From Verrucomicrobiia bacterium (GTDB taxonomy: Bacteria; Verrucomicrobiota; Verrucomicrobiia; Verrucomicrobiales; Akkermansiaceae): a stretch of 46,540 bases of DNA. The notes beneath the pieces are model-generated. The model saw only the letters and a list, made by a program, of their open reading frames with translations. It had not been told where the DNA came from and did no database searches. This document shows, in pieces, positions 1-9,800 of this stretch; the first letter of the stretch is position 1, and each line of letters begins with the position of its first letter. The stretch spans positions 1 to 46,540 of the forward strand of contig JAUIJD010000035.1 in assembly GCA_030431475.1 (NCBI GenBank). The letters run 5' to 3'. Made by a program: the position numbers and the translations under genes.

Positions 1-330
1 CTGTAACGGCTGCGACCGGCGCGGTCGCTCTTGATGATGGACGTGGATTCAGACGTAGATGCCATAGCTCCGCAGACTATGGCCGAAATGCGAGATCCGA
101 ACAGAGGGGTTCTGTTGGGCGCTTACGGCCCGAATACGGCACGAAGGCGGCCGCCGGAGGGTAAAAGGAGGGTAAAAGGAGGGCCTTGGGGCCCGTGTCG
201 GCGGCCGTCTCGCCCCCAGGACGCCCCCACTCGGCCATGAGCCGCCTTTTGGCCGCGTTCGAGCCGAAAATCGACCAACCCATCGACCCGAACCAGCCCC
301 GTTCAGCGACCCGACCCGTCAGGGATCAAC

Positions 331-529
331 CGAGGTTTTCCGACAGTCTCGTTGAGGCTGTCGGAAAACCCTCGGCTGAAGCCGAGCAGGCCATTGGAAC
401 GCTTGAGAATCGGCCAGACGCGCACGACCGCGCAAGCCGCAGCAGAATACTCGATTCTCAGGCCCTTTAACGCTGTTCATCTGCCCTCCTCATTCTGCGC
501 CCGGGGTTATCCGACAGTCTCGTTAGCCG
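331..529 (-). repeat. Rearranged attC-like structured repeat region
   Basis: On the minus strand the TAA stop of the upstream gene lies inside GGCTAAC (528-522). A GAGA spacer follows, then an arm CTGTCGGATAACCC (517-504) that pairs, with one mismatch, with GGGTTTTCCGACAG (371-358). This is attC-like, but the expected closing GTTAGCC is missing. Instead, a second copy of the arm (CTGTCGGAAAACC, 346-334) preceded by CAACGAGA follows directly. On the plus strand 334-346 and 358-370 are a perfect 13-bp inverted repeat with an 11-nt spacer. Inside lie a 6-bp hairpin with a TGAA loop (371-386) and a 9-bp inverted repeat (404-412 with 452-460). The likeliest reading is a fusion of two attC sites after deletion of a cassette; a MITE-like element is the alternative. 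Confidence 0.5.
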
Positions 530-1044
530 ATTTCGATTCGATTCGCTGGAATCCCGGCTTGTAGTAGGAGATTCTGGCACTGAGCCATACTTGCCTCCTT
601 CGTAAAGGCAAAGAGGAACGGCGCATGCGAGACGTAATAGAATCCAATCTTTTGCGCGTCTTGCAGTGCCTCAAGCTTCGCCATACGCTGGCCCCGTCTA
701 TCAAGGTCCATTTGCCGATAGTCACTCTGGTCAAAGGTTACCACTGCATGAACCGCGTCTTCGGTGAGCTGATCGATTATCCTGGCAATCGTAACGTGCG
801 TTCGTCCTTCGGCTTGGTTGTCCTCACCGGGAAGCCGGATACCAGTGTCCGGGTCATTTAGAATTGAGAATGGATCAGAGCGATTGTCGAATCCAACGGG
901 AATACCCGTCATAGTTGTGAAGTCAACGGCGAGGTCATCGGGGATAAAGCGCGGGTCGGCACGGAGTGGAGCCCATTGTTCGAGCAATTGGTGCCAGAGA
1001 CGTTTCACGCAGTCGTAGGAGTCTCCCAAGTATACCCGTTTCAT
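523..1044 (-). CDS. Cassette-borne hypothetical protein (173 aa)
   Basis: I do not recognise this family. The protein begins MKRVYLGDSYDCVKR and has several well-spaced motifs that look conserved: LNDPDTG, a VVTFDQSDYRQ segment and YYVSHAPFLFAF near the C-terminus. It has no signal peptide or membrane segment, so it is probably cytoplasmic. The start at 1044 is preferred over the upstream ATG at 1122, because the upstream stretch would overlap the attC-like site at 1051-1180. The gene starts 7 bases after the putative cassette boundary GTTAGCCGA. Its TAA stop is embedded in GGCTAAC, the first box of the next attC-like site, as is usual for integron cassette genes. Codon use is less GC-biased than in the rest of the window, consistent with transfer. 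Function unknown. Confidence 0.7.
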   Translation of the reverse strand: MKRVYLGDSYDCVKRLWHQLLEQWAPLRADPRFIPDDLAVDFTTMTGIPVGFDNRSDPFSILNDPDTGIRLPGEDNQAEGRTHVTIARIIDQLTEDAVHAVVTFDQSDYRQMDLDRRGQRMAKLEALQDAQKIGFYYVSHAPFLFAFTKEASMAQCQNLLLQAGIPANRIEIG

Positions 1045-1050
1045 TTCTTC

Positions 1051-1180
1051 GGCTAACGTCAGAGAACAGGCGACACCGACCCCCATGGCGGCACTCCGAT
1101 TCTCAGTGCCGGATTGAATCACCAGAGCGGAAACGTAACAAGGCCGCTGTGAGGTTTCGCCTGCTTCGGCTTTGTTAGCG
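1051..1180 (-). other. attC recombination site (integron cassette)
   Basis: Read on the minus strand, the site opens with CGCTAAC (1180-1174) and closes with GTTAGCC (1057-1051); the six-base core GCTAAC/GTTAGC pairs perfectly. Inside each outer box is a 6-nt unpaired spacer. Then come inner arms GAAGCAGGCGAAACC (1167-1153) and GGTGTCGCCTGTTC (1077-1064), which pair except for one mismatch and one extra G in the 5' arm. This layout of outer box, spacer and inner box with an extrahelical base in the 5' arm is the canonical attC structure. The bulge orients the site with the minus-strand genes. An apical hairpin (GGCACT 1090-1095 with AGTGCC 1105-1110) adds to the fold. The toxin gene's TAA stop lies inside the first box. 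Confidence 0.85.
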
Positions 1181-1441
1181 CTGGTCGGAGCACGGGTGAA
1201 TATCGACCACCTTCACCTCGTCTGCCGGCGCGTCAATCCACCATGTCACAGCGAATCCCGCGACCTCGGTCACCTCGTAGGGCCTCGCAGTCTCCGGATC
1301 AGTACGACTGTAGTCACCACCCAGATGCGCGATCTTGCCAAGGATCTGCAGGAAGCTCACCACCGCAGTTCGGCGCTTCCCGGTTCGGGGAAGGACCTCA
1401 AGCGCCTCAAAATGGACGTAGACCCGGTAGTCCCGCGCCAT
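1175..1441 (-). CDS. RelE/ParE-like toxin of a type II toxin-antitoxin pair
   Basis: An 88-residue basic protein with the length and outline of RelE/ParE-superfamily toxins: an N-terminal strand (RDYRVYVHFEALEVL), a helix with basic residues (PRTGKRRTAVVSFLQIL), and C-terminal beta strands ending in a VKVVDIHPCSDQR tail. Family members either cleave mRNA on the ribosome or poison gyrase; the sequence does not say which. Its ATG overlaps the antitoxin stop by one base (TGATG, 1443-1439), so the two are translationally coupled with the antitoxin first. The TAA stop falls inside the attC first box, marking it as the last gene of its cassette. Assignment rests on size, context and fold-like pattern, because this superfamily is very divergent. 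Confidence 0.7.
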   Translation of the reverse strand: MARDYRVYVHFEALEVLPRTGKRRTAVVSFLQILGKIAHLGGDYSRTDPETARPYEVTEVAGFAVTWWIDAPADEVKVVDIHPCSDQR

Positions 1442-1626
1442 CAGCTCGTGGCAAGGTCCTCAACGCTGATCCAACTCTCCTTCGTCTGGTCGGAAACCCG
1501 GCGGCGGACCCGCTCCCAATAACCTTGGTCCTCCTCCAACTCGAGTTCCGTGAGAAACGAGGAGAGCTTGTGCCTCTCCTCGCCAGAAAGCGCTTTGATC
1601 TCTTCTTTGAGCTGGTCGATCGACAT
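1441..1626 (-). CDS. Antitoxin of the cassette toxin-antitoxin pair
   Basis: A 61-residue acidic, helical protein (starts MSIDQLKEEIKALSGEERHK) with the size and charge expected of a small addiction-module antitoxin. It lies directly upstream of, and overlaps by one base, the RelE/ParE-like toxin gene. The N-terminal amphipathic helix (residues 1-30) would mediate dimerisation or toxin contact, and the acidic middle (TELELEEDQGYWERV) probably wraps the toxin. No clear HTH or ribbon-helix-helix DNA-binding fold is visible, so autoregulation is uncertain. A sigma-70-like promoter sits just upstream and would start the transcript at or next to the ATG, giving a leaderless message. Confidence 0.7.
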   Translation of the reverse strand: MSIDQLKEEIKALSGEERHKLSSFLTELELEEDQGYWERVRRRVSDQTKESWISVEDLATS

Positions 1627-1632
1627 GGGAGC

Positions 1633-1660
1633 AGGATAGCCCCGTTCGACTGGATTTCAA
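1633..1660 (-). promoter_or_regulatory. Candidate promoter for toxin-antitoxin cassette
   Basis: On the minus strand TTGAAA (1660-1655, five of six matches to the -35 consensus) is followed after 16 bases by TATCCT (1638-1633, four of six to -10). The antitoxin ATG lies only six bases beyond the -10 box, so the natural start point falls on or beside the A of the ATG. That predicts a leaderless or near-leaderless mRNA. A promoter inside the cassette is common for toxin-antitoxin cassettes, which must be expressed wherever they insert. It has not been tested here. Confidence 0.5.
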
Positions 1661-1704
1661 CACCGGAGCAGCCCCGCCGGGTCCGCTACTGCGCAGCCTT
1701 TTTG

Positions 1705-1711
1705 CGCTAAC
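1705..1711 (-). other. Cassette upstream boundary (GTTAGCG)
   Basis: On the minus strand GTTAGCG (1711-1705) precedes the toxin-antitoxin cassette. It is the exact complement of the CGCTAAC box that opens the cassette's own attC at 1180-1174; the match extends to 8 bp. In integron cassettes the first bases of the cassette complete its attC in the excised circle, so this self-match marks the crossover point. No attI or attC half could be found to the right of it, and no integrase gene lies nearby. Confidence 0.6.
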
Positions 1712-2145
1712 AGTCTATTGTATCGAGTCGTGGTTTTCAGGGGAGATCCCGGCCGACGGCAACAATGTTATCCCGTCCGTGGAACGTCGTGGAGCTTCCG
1801 GGTTTTGCGAGTCGTCGAGGGTCAGTTCTTGGGAGCGGTGGGCGTTCTCGGCCGGGTCTCCCGGGTCCTTCGCCCAGCTCCGGGGCCTGTTCCGAATGGC
1901 ACTACCTTGCGCCGACCCGTCGCGGAACATCCCAAAGCGCCACACCGTCGCCGCAGCGATCGGAGGCGGGGCGCCCCCGTCCCGCAACCCTCCGTGGTCG
2001 CCGACGCCGCAAGGCCGGCAGGCCGGGGGCGGCCTGCCTCCAATCCTGCCATGCCGGAGTCGGCCTTGGAAGGGATCGCAGTGGCGTACGGAAGTGCCAT
2101 CCAGCCTATTGCCGGCGTCCCTTCCGGCCTGAAGTCGAAAGCCGC
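1712..2145. other. Intergenic stretch without a convincing gene
   Basis: About 430 bases between the cassette boundary and the acetylesterase gene. The open frames here overlap on both strands and encode Arg/Pro/Gly-rich compositional sequence, so none is called. The only distinct structure is an 8-bp perfect hairpin (GGCAGGCC 2017-2024 with GGCCTGCC 2031-2038). It lies about 110 bases beyond the stop of the minus-strand gene and has no T-run, so it is at most a weak, non-canonical terminator. Confidence 0.5.
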
Positions 2146-4489: not shown

Positions 4490-6337
4490 ATGCGTCTTCG
4501 TTTCAAAACCGCCCTCCTGCTCGCCGTCGCGGCCGGCCACCCGGTGCCGGCCGCCGAGATGCTGCCACCGGGCGACGTGCGCCTCGCGGACGGACCGTTC
4601 CGGGCGGCCCAGCAGCGGGATCTCGACTACCTGCTCGAACTCGAACCCGCACGCCTGCTCGCCGCCATGCGGGAAGCCGCGGGGCTGGAGACCAAGGCCC
4701 GCCGCTACGGCGGATGGGAAACGCGCGGATCGGGCATGATCGGCCACTACCTGAGCGCCTGCTCGTGGATGAGCGAGGCCACCGGCCATGCCACCCTGAA
4801 GCAGCGCGTGGACGCCATCGTCGCCGAGATGCACGCCTGCCAGGAAGCCGTCGGCAACGGCGCCCTCTATTCATCTCCCTGGGAACGCCGCGTGTGGTTC
4901 CCCGCCCTGGAACGCGGGGAGCCTCGATTCACCCGCGTCGTCCCCTTCTACACCGGCCACAAGACGCTCGCCGGCCTGCGCGACGCCTGGCTCGTCGCCG
5001 GCAACGCCCGGGCCGGCGAGGTCCTGCGCCGCTACGCCGACTGGTGCGTGGAGGTCACCTCCCGCTTGACCGACGAGCAGTGGATCGAGCTGACGAAAAC
5101 CGAGTTCGGAGCGCCCGGTGAAGTCTTCGCCGATCTCCACCTCCGCACCGGCGAGAAGCGCTACGCCGAGCTGGCGCGGCGTTTCCACCGGCCGGCGACC
5201 CGCGATGCGCTCGCCGACGGCGACGGCTCGGTGCTCACCGGGCTCCATGCCAACACCGAGATCCCCGTCGTCGTCGGCTATCCCCGGATCGCGCGCTTCG
5301 ACCGCGACCCCGTCTGGCGCAAGGCCGCCGTGAACTTCTGGCAGGAGGTCACGCGACGGCAGACCTTCGTCTTCGGCGGCAAAAGCATCTGGGAATGCTT
5401 CATCCCGCCCCATGAGCACGAAGCCCAGCTCCAGCGCCTCTGCGGTCCCGAGACCTGCAACAGCTACAACATGCTCAAGCTCACCCGGGCGCTGTGGGAA
5501 GCCGACCCCGAGCCGCGTCACCTCGACTACCTCGAGCACGTCCTCCACAACCACATCCTCGGCACCATCAACCGCGAGGGCGATGGCGTCTTCGCCTACT
5601 ACACCCCGACCCTGCCCGGGCACTACCGGCGCTTCTCCCGCCCCTTCGATGCCTTCTGGTGCTGCGTCGGCAGCGGCATGGAAAACCACGCCCGCCACGG
5701 CAGCTACCTCTACGCCCGCGACGAAAGCCGCTTCCTCGTGAATCTCTACATTCCCTCCACCGCCCGCTGGCCGGAGCGTGGGCTCACCCTCACCCAGGAT
5801 TCCGACTTTCCGGCGTCCGACCTGCACCGCCTCCGACTCGATCTCGAGTCGCCCCGGTCCTTCACCCTAAGCCTGCGCCTCCCGAAATGGGCGGCTCGCC
5901 CCCGGGTCCGGGTCAACGGCGAGGAGGTCGAGGTGCCGGACGCGCCGCGGCTCGAGCTCCCGCGCGAGTGGCGCGACGGCGACCTCGTGGAAGTCCACCT
6001 GCCCGCCACCCTGACCCAGCGCTCCACGCCCGGGGAAGGCCGGTTCCGTTCGTTCTTCCACGGTCCCCTGCTGCTCGCCGTGCCGATGGGAACCGCGGGG
6101 CTGGACGACGCCGACCTCGTCGCCGGCGGCGACGAGGACTTCGAGCAACTCGGGCGCAAGCGGCTCCCGCTCGATCGCGTCCCCGGCGTCCCGGGATCGG
6201 CCGACGAGGCGCGCGCCCGGATCCACCACCGGGAGGGCGCGGACTACCGGCTCGACTCCGATCGGGGCGAGGTTCCTCTGATTCCCTTCCACCGCATCGG
6301 CAGCCAGCGCTACGCGGTGCATCTCCCGGTGCGATAA
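4490..6337 (+). CDS. GH127 beta-L-arabinofuranosidase (DUF1680)
   Basis: A 615-residue exported enzyme. The start at 4490 gives a short signal peptide (MRLRFKTALLLAVAAGHPVPA), whereas the longer frame to 4178 would overlap the divergent gene. The catalytic (alpha/alpha)6 barrel carries the GH127 signatures: WECF (Glu302, candidate acid/base), GPETCNSYNM (Glu321, Cys323) and WCCVGSGMENHARHG (Cys391, Cys392). In characterised GH127 enzymes the Glu-Cys plus Cys-Cys set binds zinc and one Cys is the nucleophile. C-terminal beta domains follow (residues about 430-600). The family releases L-arabinofuranose from pectic arabinan and hydroxyproline-rich glycoproteins. Together with the divergent esterase pair it forms a pectin side-chain block. 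Confidence 0.92.
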   Translation: MRLRFKTALLLAVAAGHPVPAAEMLPPGDVRLADGPFRAAQQRDLDYLLELEPARLLAAMREAAGLETKARRYGGWETRGSGMIGHYLSACSWMSEATGHATLKQRVDAIVAEMHACQEAVGNGALYSSPWERRVWFPALERGEPRFTRVVPFYTGHKTLAGLRDAWLVAGNARAGEVLRRYADWCVEVTSRLTDEQWIELTKTEFGAPGEVFADLHLRTGEKRYAELARRFHRPATRDALADGDGSVLTGLHANTEIPVVVGYPRIARFDRDPVWRKAAVNFWQEVTRRQTFVFGGKSIWECFIPPHEHEAQLQRLCGPETCNSYNMLKLTRALWEADPEPRHLDYLEHVLHNHILGTINREGDGVFAYYTPTLPGHYRRFSRPFDAFWCCVGSGMENHARHGSYLYARDESRFLVNLYIPSTARWPERGLTLTQDSDFPASDLHRLRLDLESPRSFTLSLRLPKWAARPRVRVNGEEVEVPDAPRLELPREWRDGDLVEVHLPATLTQRSTPGEGRFRSFFHGPLLLAVPMGTAGLDDADLVAGGDEDFEQLGRKRLPLDRVPGVPGSADEARARIHHREGADYRLDSDRGEVPLIPFHRIGSQRYAVHLPVR

Positions 6338-6868: not shown

Positions 6869-9800
6869 ATGCCCATCCATCGACCGGTCCTCCTCCTGCT
6901 CGCATCGCTCGCACCGCTCGATGCGGCCGACGTCTCCCTGACCGGGAGCGACGCCTTCGGAGACTCCTCGTTCAACACCGCGGGGTTCTGGGACAACGCC
7001 GCCGCACCGGCTCCCGGCAACGACTACTTCACCGGCGACTTCCGCCTGCGCACCCCGGCCGACGGCGCCAGCCACCTCTTCGCCGGCGACTCCCTCACGG
7101 TGAATTACAGCGCCGACGACGCCGAAACCGGCCTTACCTACAAGGGCACCGGCACCGGCGGCGTGATCACCGTGGACGATCTCATCCTCGACGGTGGCCA
7201 GCTGATTCATCTGAACGGCCCCGGCGACCTGTGGCAGCTCGACGGCGCGATCACCGTGGCCGCCGATGCCCGGATCTGGGGCAGACAGGGCCCCATCGAC
7301 ATCCTCGCCGACCTCGGCGGAGCCGCGGCGATCACCATTCCGCAGGACGACAACAATCCCAACAACCTCGTCCGCTTTCTCTCCGGAAACAACACCTTCA
7401 CCGGCGACCTCGTCGTCGACGGGAACTTCACCCTCGCCAACGGCGGGCGCTTCGTGTTCGCGCCCGCCGCGACAGGCGTCAGCAACTCGATCACCGGCCC
7501 CACGGCCGACGGCGTCTCGCTGGAGGGCATCATCGCCATCGACACCACCAGCGCCGATCCGACAAGCGGCAGCAGTTGGACGCTGGTCGACGCGTCGAAC
7601 ATCAACTACACCGCGACCTTCTCGGTCGATGGTTACACGGCGGGCGCCGGCTCTCCCGGGGCGCGCACGTGGACCTCGGGCGACGGCGCCTTCGCGTTCG
7701 ACGAAAGCAACGGCACGCTCACGCGGCTCGCGATCAACGAGGTCCAGCCGCTCACCCCGGATGCCTCCACCCTGATCCTCTACCACTGCGACGATGCGGC
7801 CGGGCAGAACGGGGTCGCCGACAGCTCGGGCAACGGCTTCGACGGCATCCAGGGCACCGGCACCGGCGACACCCCCGCCGACCTGAACCTCGTGCCCGCA
7901 AGTTCGGCGACCGGTTTCGGCACCGCGCTCACGCTCGGCCTGAACGACGGCGTCGGCATCGACTTCGACGGCAGCGGCACCTGGGCCTTCAATGCCGAAC
8001 CCGGCGACGTCTTCGACATGACCCAGCTCGGCAGCGACGCCTCCGCCACCTTCACGCTCGAGGCGATGGTCAACCTGCCCTCCCTCGACCAGGCCGGACC
8101 GATGCACCTGTGGAGCGGTGACGATGAATCGGGCCGCACCTTCCAGTTCCGGATCAACGACGGCGGCGTGCTCAATTTCGACCTGATCGAGGCCGGCAAC
8201 GGCGGCGGCTTCACCCACGACCTCGCCACCGTCGCCGGCACCCATGCCTTCGCCCCCGACGAGTGGTTCCACGTCGCGGTGGTCTACGACGGCAGCGGGG
8301 GCCCGGGCGCCGAGGTGGTGCGCTTCTACTGGACCCGCGTCGACAGCGGCGCGACCGAAGCCAACCTCCTCGCCACCAGTCCGCCGGGGGATGTGCAATG
8401 GGACGACAATGCCGACAGCCCGATGAGCTTCGGGAATGAAAGCCGGCGCTTCGGTGGCTACGGCGAGGGCGTCCAGGGGCTCATTGACGAAGGCCGGATC
8501 AGCACCACGGCCCGTGCGGCGTGGGACTTCATCTTCTCCGGACCGGCCGGCAGCCTCGATACCGACGACGACGGCATCACCGACGGCGAGGAGGTGATCC
8601 CCGGAGTGGACGGCTACATCACCGATCCGAACGACCCGGACACGGACTCCGACGGCCACTCCGACGGCGAGGAGGTTCTGATCGGCTCGGACCCCACCCG
8701 TCGCGGCATCGTCCCGGTCGCCACCCCGCTCATCGACGCCTCCACCCGCAACGGCAGCTTCGAGTTGATCGACGGCGCGACCGGGCAGCCGAACGTCTTC
8801 GACTACGACACCGACCCGAACGGCGACGTCGACGACTGGACCTATCTCGGCGGCGCCATCATCAACGATGCCGGCTCACACGCCGAGGCCGGCTGGTCCG
8901 CCGGCTTCGCCACCGAGGGCGAGCGTTTCGGCTTCGTCCTGCAGGACTACGCCATCTTCAACCTCACTTCCCACACTCTTTCCGATGGTGATGTGATCCG
9001 TTATCAATGGGACCGCAGCCCTTCCGACATGAGCCACTACGGCCATCTGGCCTACGACGCGGCCGGCTCCGGAAACGCGGGCGACATCGTGCTGCTCCCG
9101 GCTTCGGAAGTCCTCGTCGCGGATGGCGGCGGCGCCATCGGACGGGATTTCGGCGGAATCTTCGCCATCGACGCCACCGAGCATCCCGCCGCGATCGGAA
9201 AGGAACTCGCCTTCGTGCTCGCGGGTGCCGACGACGGGGGGGTGGCGCGCTGGGACAACGTGCGGGTGGATCTCCTCACCCCCGGCACCGACGACGACGA
9301 GGACGATCTTCCCGATCACTGGGAAACCGCCTACGGCCTCGACCCGAACGACGACGGCTCGACCGACCCCGACCAGGGCGCCGCGGGGGATCCCGACGAC
9401 GACGGCCTGACCAACGCCCAGGAGCTCGACTACGGAACGAACCCGGTCGTCGCCGAGGACCCGCTGGCGGACACGGACGGCGACTACCTCCCCGATCTCT
9501 GGGAGCTGGTCCACCTCGCGACCCTCGACCAGAACGCCTACGACGATCCGGACGACGACGGCCACAACCATCAGGCGGAACGCGTCGGCGGCACCGGCCC
9601 GCTCGACGCCGCCTCCTTCCCGACCTTCGAAGCGCCCTCGGTGGCCCTCATGGCCGACACCGAGGTCGCCCCCGACGCCTGCATCATGCCTTCAAATGCG
9701 ATCTATGGCCGGGCGATCAACGGACTCTCCTTCCAGGACCAGATCCTCCTCACCTTCAACGGCCGTCAGTACACCGCGTGGTACGACAACAACGGATCGA

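Follow-up and report, generated by a model that had tools for sequence, protein, structure and literature searches.

Arrays of attC-bearing cassettes that have no adjoining integron integrase gene (intI), known as CALINs, are the described systems closest to the locus reported here. Off-target insertion, loss of intI and rearrangement have been proposed as their origins (PMC8618304), their mobilisation in trans has been stated, and in Xanthomonas they occur away from the main integron locus (both PMC12444791). A Treponema likewise has attC but no intI (PMC3607928). Published work already covers integrons in Verrucomicrobiota, genomes with several intI, and CALINs together with their proposed origins (PMC8618304, PMC2426708, PMC9024848). 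Sites of the attI type are regarded as poorly described outside class 1 integrons (PMC9024848), and attI fragments are mentioned as forming part of cassettes in mobile integrons (PMC12901181).

The window, by which we mean the entire 46,540-nucleotide stretch analysed, is the whole of contig C70 in a draft genome of 4.73 Mb (109 contigs, 95.3% complete). Its minus strand holds an integron array of two cassettes. attC and cassettes share one orientation, with one attC intact and the second reduced to its R'' box. The array is CALIN-like but keeps attI and is as such a variant of the CALIN kind already known: it has in common with CALINs the attC-bearing cassettes and the lack of an adjoining intI, and differs from them by a head that resembles attI and is of the type found in integrase-bearing integrons and by its single intact attC. 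A first, sequence-only reading had called it a CALIN-type remnant or the end of a longer array. The CALIN description is apt for attC without neighbouring intI but not for the head, which is present as an attI-like core; moreover, the loss of the attC of cassette 2 to an IS-type insertion leaves the array short of the at least two attC that IntegronFinder 2 by default expects of a CALIN (PMC9024848). Along the minus strand from 1726 the order is attI-like core, cassette 1, cassette 2, a 168-bp IS-type element, a second IS end and an IS66 end. The features are:

1724..1805, minus strand: shortened attI-side region
1709..1726, minus strand: attI-like core, TCGATACAATAGACT^GTT, with the recombination point before or inside the GTT at 1711
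1058..1711, minus strand: cassette 1 including its own attC
1441..1626, minus strand: antitoxin-like gene, 61 aa, directly upstream of the toxin-like gene
1175..1441, minus strand: toxin-like gene, 88 aa, with its stop codon in R''
1050..1181, minus strand: attC of cassette 1, about 82% identical to two sites of contig C60
522..1057, minus strand: cassette 2, its attC gone past R''
523..1044, minus strand: cassette gene, 173 aa, with an ATG start and no assigned function
354..521, no strand: IS-type or MITE-like element of 168 bp with inverted ends and GTT flanks at 351-353 and 522-524
128..350, no strand: IS end of the DDE-transposase type, truncated by the IS66 end, 94% identical to C96
1..127, no strand: IS66-family element end, at the edge of the contig, matching both ends of a copy in C109 that matches PF03050 and PF05717

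Two attC models were used, one built from 10 A-type sites of C60, C88, C22 and the congener G093 with the window left out (R1), the other from 8 B-type sites (R2); a mixed alignment of 17 sites, with only 7 consensus pairs, was rejected for model building. R1 places an attC at 1050-1181 on the minus strand (112.4 bits, E 5.5e-23), just where one had been proposed, and its sole other match in the window up to E 10 has an E value of 2.3. The attC layout claimed before is also seen in the fold, which pairs R'' with R' and L'' with L' and leaves one base of L'' unpaired. Folded as DNA, the site has z-scores of -2.62 (plus strand) and -1.68 (minus strand), so that folding energy on its own is modest evidence, and the window has no Rfam match at the gathering threshold. 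A strict motif scan, in which the window and a site of C60 were among the 8 matches and each matched on both strands, was replaced by the attC models. The second attC that was expected near 529 did not materialize: neither R1 nor R2 has a match there and R'' alone is left, because an IS-type element cut the attC of the last cassette at AAC. Searched against whole genomes (E up to 1), R1 finds at least 16 sites in the window's genome, at least 62 in the closed genome G048 and at least 13 in G093; attC matches at E up to 0.001 occur in 11 of the 18 genomes of the genus. The similarity of attC within a genome and the arrays beside intI and attI in G048, G093 and G114 are reminiscent of sedentary chromosomal integrons, whereas the window array has no adjacent intI and a genome has several arrays, some of which are orphans. 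In the window and those sites of alignment A3 that were inspected by eye, the unpaired L'' base is G on the coding strand and C on the recombining strand. In Vibrio repeats, the unpaired L'' base is G on the recombining strand.

Cassette 1 starts with GTTAGCGC at 1711 of the minus strand and its R'' box reads AGCGCTAAC at 1182-1174; cassette 2 starts with GTTAGCCGA at 1057 and ends with TCGGCTAAC at 530-522. The 8- and 9-bp end matches claimed earlier are thus borne out; with the flanks crudely shuffled in dinucleotide blocks (2000 rounds each), such matches had frequencies of 0.0105 and 0.003, respectively. Likewise, the TAA stops of both cassette genes do fall within the R'' box. Among the listed arrays, 52 cassettes are bounded by consecutive attC matches and 40 have both boxes readable. 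The start matches the cassette's own R'' over at least 7 bp in 37 of these 40, compared with a mean of 4.0 and a maximum of 10 for shuffled partners (1000 rounds). The three misses are a unit holding a group II intron piece (L093), a unit holding a 1.6-kb element repeated elsewhere (L095), and one further unit (L072).

Cassette 1 consists of two small adjacent genes, as would a type II toxin-antitoxin system, and the pair is conserved in seven of nine relatives examined. Relatives of the 88-aa protein occur in 22 of 195 family genomes. It has no Pfam, NCBIfam or PADLOC match, to a toxin family or otherwise, and none among the plasmids searched, and the 61-aa antitoxin-like protein has no convincing Pfam or NCBIfam match; the conserved gene pair suggests that the 88-aa protein may be a toxin. 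The pair is also found elsewhere in the family (loci L122-L130), with the nearest relative (79%) on contig C77 of G093, a contig that has no attC among the R1 matches listed. The gene of cassette 2 is read from the ATG at 1044, as the GTG at 1122 that starts a longer ORF falls within attC. Matches to the longer ORF in two of 195 family genomes, one being its own, are confined to the attC-coded first residues, and the weak PADLOC matches of the 199-aa ORF to PD-Lambda-5_B (E 0.0047 and 0.017) lie partly in the attC-coded start.

At the head of the window array is a putative attI. Its 17-bp core, CGATACAATANACTGTT, searched with up to 3 mismatches, has three matches in the window's genome, all of them exact and each heading cassettes (C22, C65 and the window); the reversed control has one. 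Six exact copies of the 18-bp core occur in the 195 family genomes, all in this genus: the three just named, two in G093 and one in G048. Up to 2 mismatches give 34 places, and 17 with the reversed control, which makes most inexact matches probably chance; the six exact ones were used. On contig C182 of G093 the core has the usual layout, with an intact integrase gene on one side and cassettes on the other, and on contig C56 of G114 a copy with 3 mismatches adjoins an integrase that shares 64% identity with the G093 enzyme. We call this attI type 2. Type 1, GAATAAANACT^GTT and near forms, has 10 exact matches in the 18 genus genomes (reversed control, 1), nine at array heads (five with intI; four without, among the matches listed) and one, in G056, without attC and probably chance. 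The attI side of the window lacks about 200 bp that C65 and C22 have between two ACCACGA-TCG repeats, and a sigma-70 scan found no promoter pair at the attI core.

The same heads emerge from a motif-free test in which the R'' box of the first attC is compared with GTT triplets upstream. A match of at least 7 bp after ACT was present in all 15 selected arrays (nine with intI, one of them broken, and six without), one of which had a second match elsewhere; with R'' boxes swapped between arrays, 12 of 188 pairings matched and none did so after ACT. Matching the first cassette with its own R'' therefore located attI in each of these arrays and gave two types that track integrase clades. As to the selection, 17 arrays were tried, L106, L070 and L096 were dropped (the latter two had no fitting match), G093:C22 was added, and C65 was left out with its cassette end interrupted. 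At L106 the method picked places other than attI, and the core was later found there by pattern. In a separate start/R'' run no match was obtained for L108, L109, L019 and L096, apparently owing to misreading of the box.

No integrase gene lies next to the array as in a complete integron: contig C70 has no TIGR02249 match, and ten integrase proteins match nothing there. The earlier statement that the window has no intI is correct; on other contigs the genome has an intact integrase (C75) and a broken one (C60). The C75 integrase (387 bits against a cut-off of 265) groups with proteins of two Verrucomicrobiia metagenome-assembled genomes (support 100/99), the nearest 66% and the other 59% identical; these best relatives are consistent with the verrucomicrobial origin named at the outset. 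The broken type-1 integrase of C60 (L017:3744-4907) matches its G114 relative at residues 5-82 and 250-425, with the middle third absent; the gap holds a GIY-YIG ORF, and the gene heads an array of at least four attC. The attI types follow the integrase clades: type 1 goes with a clade of nine rows (support 100/100; attI had been seen in seven of them when the tree was made) and type 2 with the integrases of G093:C182 and G114:C56 (support 100/99). With C75 in another clade and C60 of type 1, no type-2-clade integrase is seen in the window's assembly; the cognate enzyme may be encoded in the missing part of this 95%-complete draft. Integron integrases above the family cut-off are present in at least eight of the 18 genus genomes. 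Integrases of the two attI-bearing clades have frames of 418-553 aa (L071, L093, L097, L098, L103, L104, L105 and L110) with N-terminal extensions that the 325-aa C75 enzyme does not have. About 130 bp upstream of the intact C75 gene (L018 ~8520-8545) stands ACACT^GTTCG, resembling an attI core, and the contig ends before any attC.

The window is not the only array of this sort. Eight attI-headed arrays without intI are well supported, that is, by a core, an attC match, a 7- or 8-bp start/R'' match and no intI seen; they come from five genomes of the genus and comprise the window, C22 of the same genome, G093:C176, G093:C22, the 1.28- and 1.95-Mb loci of G048, G030:C5 and G120:C5 (for the last two, 3-kb loci were read, and no integron integrase is on those contigs among the matches listed). 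Weaker candidates are C65 and the 2.34- and 2.24-Mb loci of G048, whose heads have no full start/R'' match. The window's genome thus has three arrays headed by type-2 attI without intI (C22, C65 and the window). Several attI-headed orphan arrays within a single genome were not described in the open-access literature among the matches listed. No integrase remnant was detected with ten integrase proteins in nine orphan loci at E 0.01, nor in L133 and L135. Among 61 cassettes compared in closed G048, whole cassettes are 100% identical between the integrase arrays at 0.97 and 3.46 Mb and between those at 3.26 and 3.46 Mb. In addition, the orphan array at 1.28 Mb has a 661-bp cassette that matches two copies in the integrase-headed array at 3.26 Mb with 99.85% identity by BLAST, while the 60-bp flanks by one copy are only 45% and 25% identical. 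This is one of 10 orphan cassettes compared in G048 that is common to an integrase-headed array at that level; the first cassette of the 1.28-Mb array has 88% similarity to one at 0.97 Mb. The shared cassette suggests that an integrase present in trans may allow orphan and integrase-headed arrays to exchange cassettes, and the filling of orphan attI sites in trans becomes testable.

We consider it likely that the window holds an array that keeps attI and two cassettes, was filled earlier at its own attI, has been separated from its integrase and is probably decaying. An integrase of the type-2 clade would have recombined attI with attC at 1711 and so inserted the cassettes. The last cassette has since lost its attC to IS-type elements, which now cap the array. 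The route of orphaning and any activity in trans are presumed. The attI test indicates that some integrase-less arrays are neither headless debris nor off-target insertions. Chance resemblance to integron cassettes, to which the Rfam result and the modest folding z-scores might lend colour, hardly deserves credence and is refuted by the R1 attC matches in window and genomes, the 37 of 40 self-matching cassettes and the 15 of 15 arrays in the attI test. It also seems quite improbable that a distant integrase used a non-att, attG-like site and that the shared head is a dispersed-repeat hot spot. Loot and others have reportedly worked on attG. Insertion at attG uses a site other than attI or attC, whereas the head here is a conserved attI-type core. 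Every exact copy of the core that was found heads an array, the core adjoins intI in G093 and, near-identical, in G114, and attI types track integrase clades, all of which speaks against off-target insertion here. The differing chromosomal settings of the heads speak for it. Off-target insertion also seems to occur in the genus, since at 5.397 Mb in G048 (L114) a lone cassette with an 8-bp start/R'' match starts after AAC without an attI motif and is a candidate for such an event.

The main alternative to separation of the array from its integrase is that attI regions with their cassettes were copied to new places as mobile or duplicated modules rather than left behind after intI loss. In differing settings, the homology of type-2 heads has roughly one common left border, and in G048 the 1.28- and 1.95-Mb orphan heads share 87% identity over some 400 bp, their identity to the 3.46-Mb head being about 80%. 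However, the conserved left border fits either loss or duplication, as it may mark the functional part alone, and no vehicle or terminal repeats were identified; we regard duplication as unlikely. Simple deletion is conceivable instead: intI at 3.46 Mb in G048 is flanked by direct repeats (137 bp, 88%), and repeats of this sort also occur at orphan heads. Of 11 intI loci, this is the one with a substantial repeat pair, two others having 14 and 22 bp and eight none; the left flanks searched ranged in length from 260 to 2520 bases. Recombination between repeats is thus a possible cause of intI loss, though perhaps not a general one. It is tempting, if somewhat doubtful, to speculate further that the genus runs a distributed integron, with several attI platforms scattered along the chromosome, many without intI, and one or a few integrases that act in trans to fill and reshuffle them. 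This would provide several first-cassette positions per genome. A dispersed repeat of about 200 bp at 1882-2100 of the window recurs in C100, C75 and C35 with 83-90% identity. It was rejected as a scar of intI loss because it lies about 950 bp downstream of the C75 intI but in the opposite sense relative to the array, and because of the copies in C100 and C35.

With its attI region shortened and its last attC destroyed, the window array shows decay and may be dead. The AAC of the last R'' is directly followed by GAGACTGTCGG, the end of the GTT-flanked 168-bp element, and the same end, adjacent, belongs to an IS whose transposase C-terminus, in C96, matches PF13751. A scan of the fetched loci found this end at eight distinct places. 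At six of these it is preceded by AAC or GTT; the window accounts for three, C96 for two and C60 for one. The AAC that precedes the IS end in C60 and C96 belongs to a cassette's R''. The other two places (L102 and L027) have neither triplet before the end and look like chance. These ends fit an IS that has AAC/GTT as a 3-bp repeat at the attC core triplet, a putative element that we know from its ends, no complete copy having been seen. Such an element would be comparable to IS1111-attC elements and to group IIC-attC introns (the latter named in PMC12901181), which also insert in attC. IS1111 types have a DEDD transposase (PMC11187229), whereas the IS end in the window goes with a transposase piece of the DDE family PF13751 and an AAC/GTT repeat; an attC-targeting IS of this kind was not reported in the open-access literature among the matches listed. 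IS-type ends abut AAC/GTT of attC boxes at 350-354 and 521-524 of the window, near 127 of L017, and near 5173 and 5749 of L021. Group II intron pieces end the C22 and C65 arrays and lie inside or at the end of arrays at L024:6844-6913, L025:7600-8190 and L093:11307-11472, all on the minus strand.
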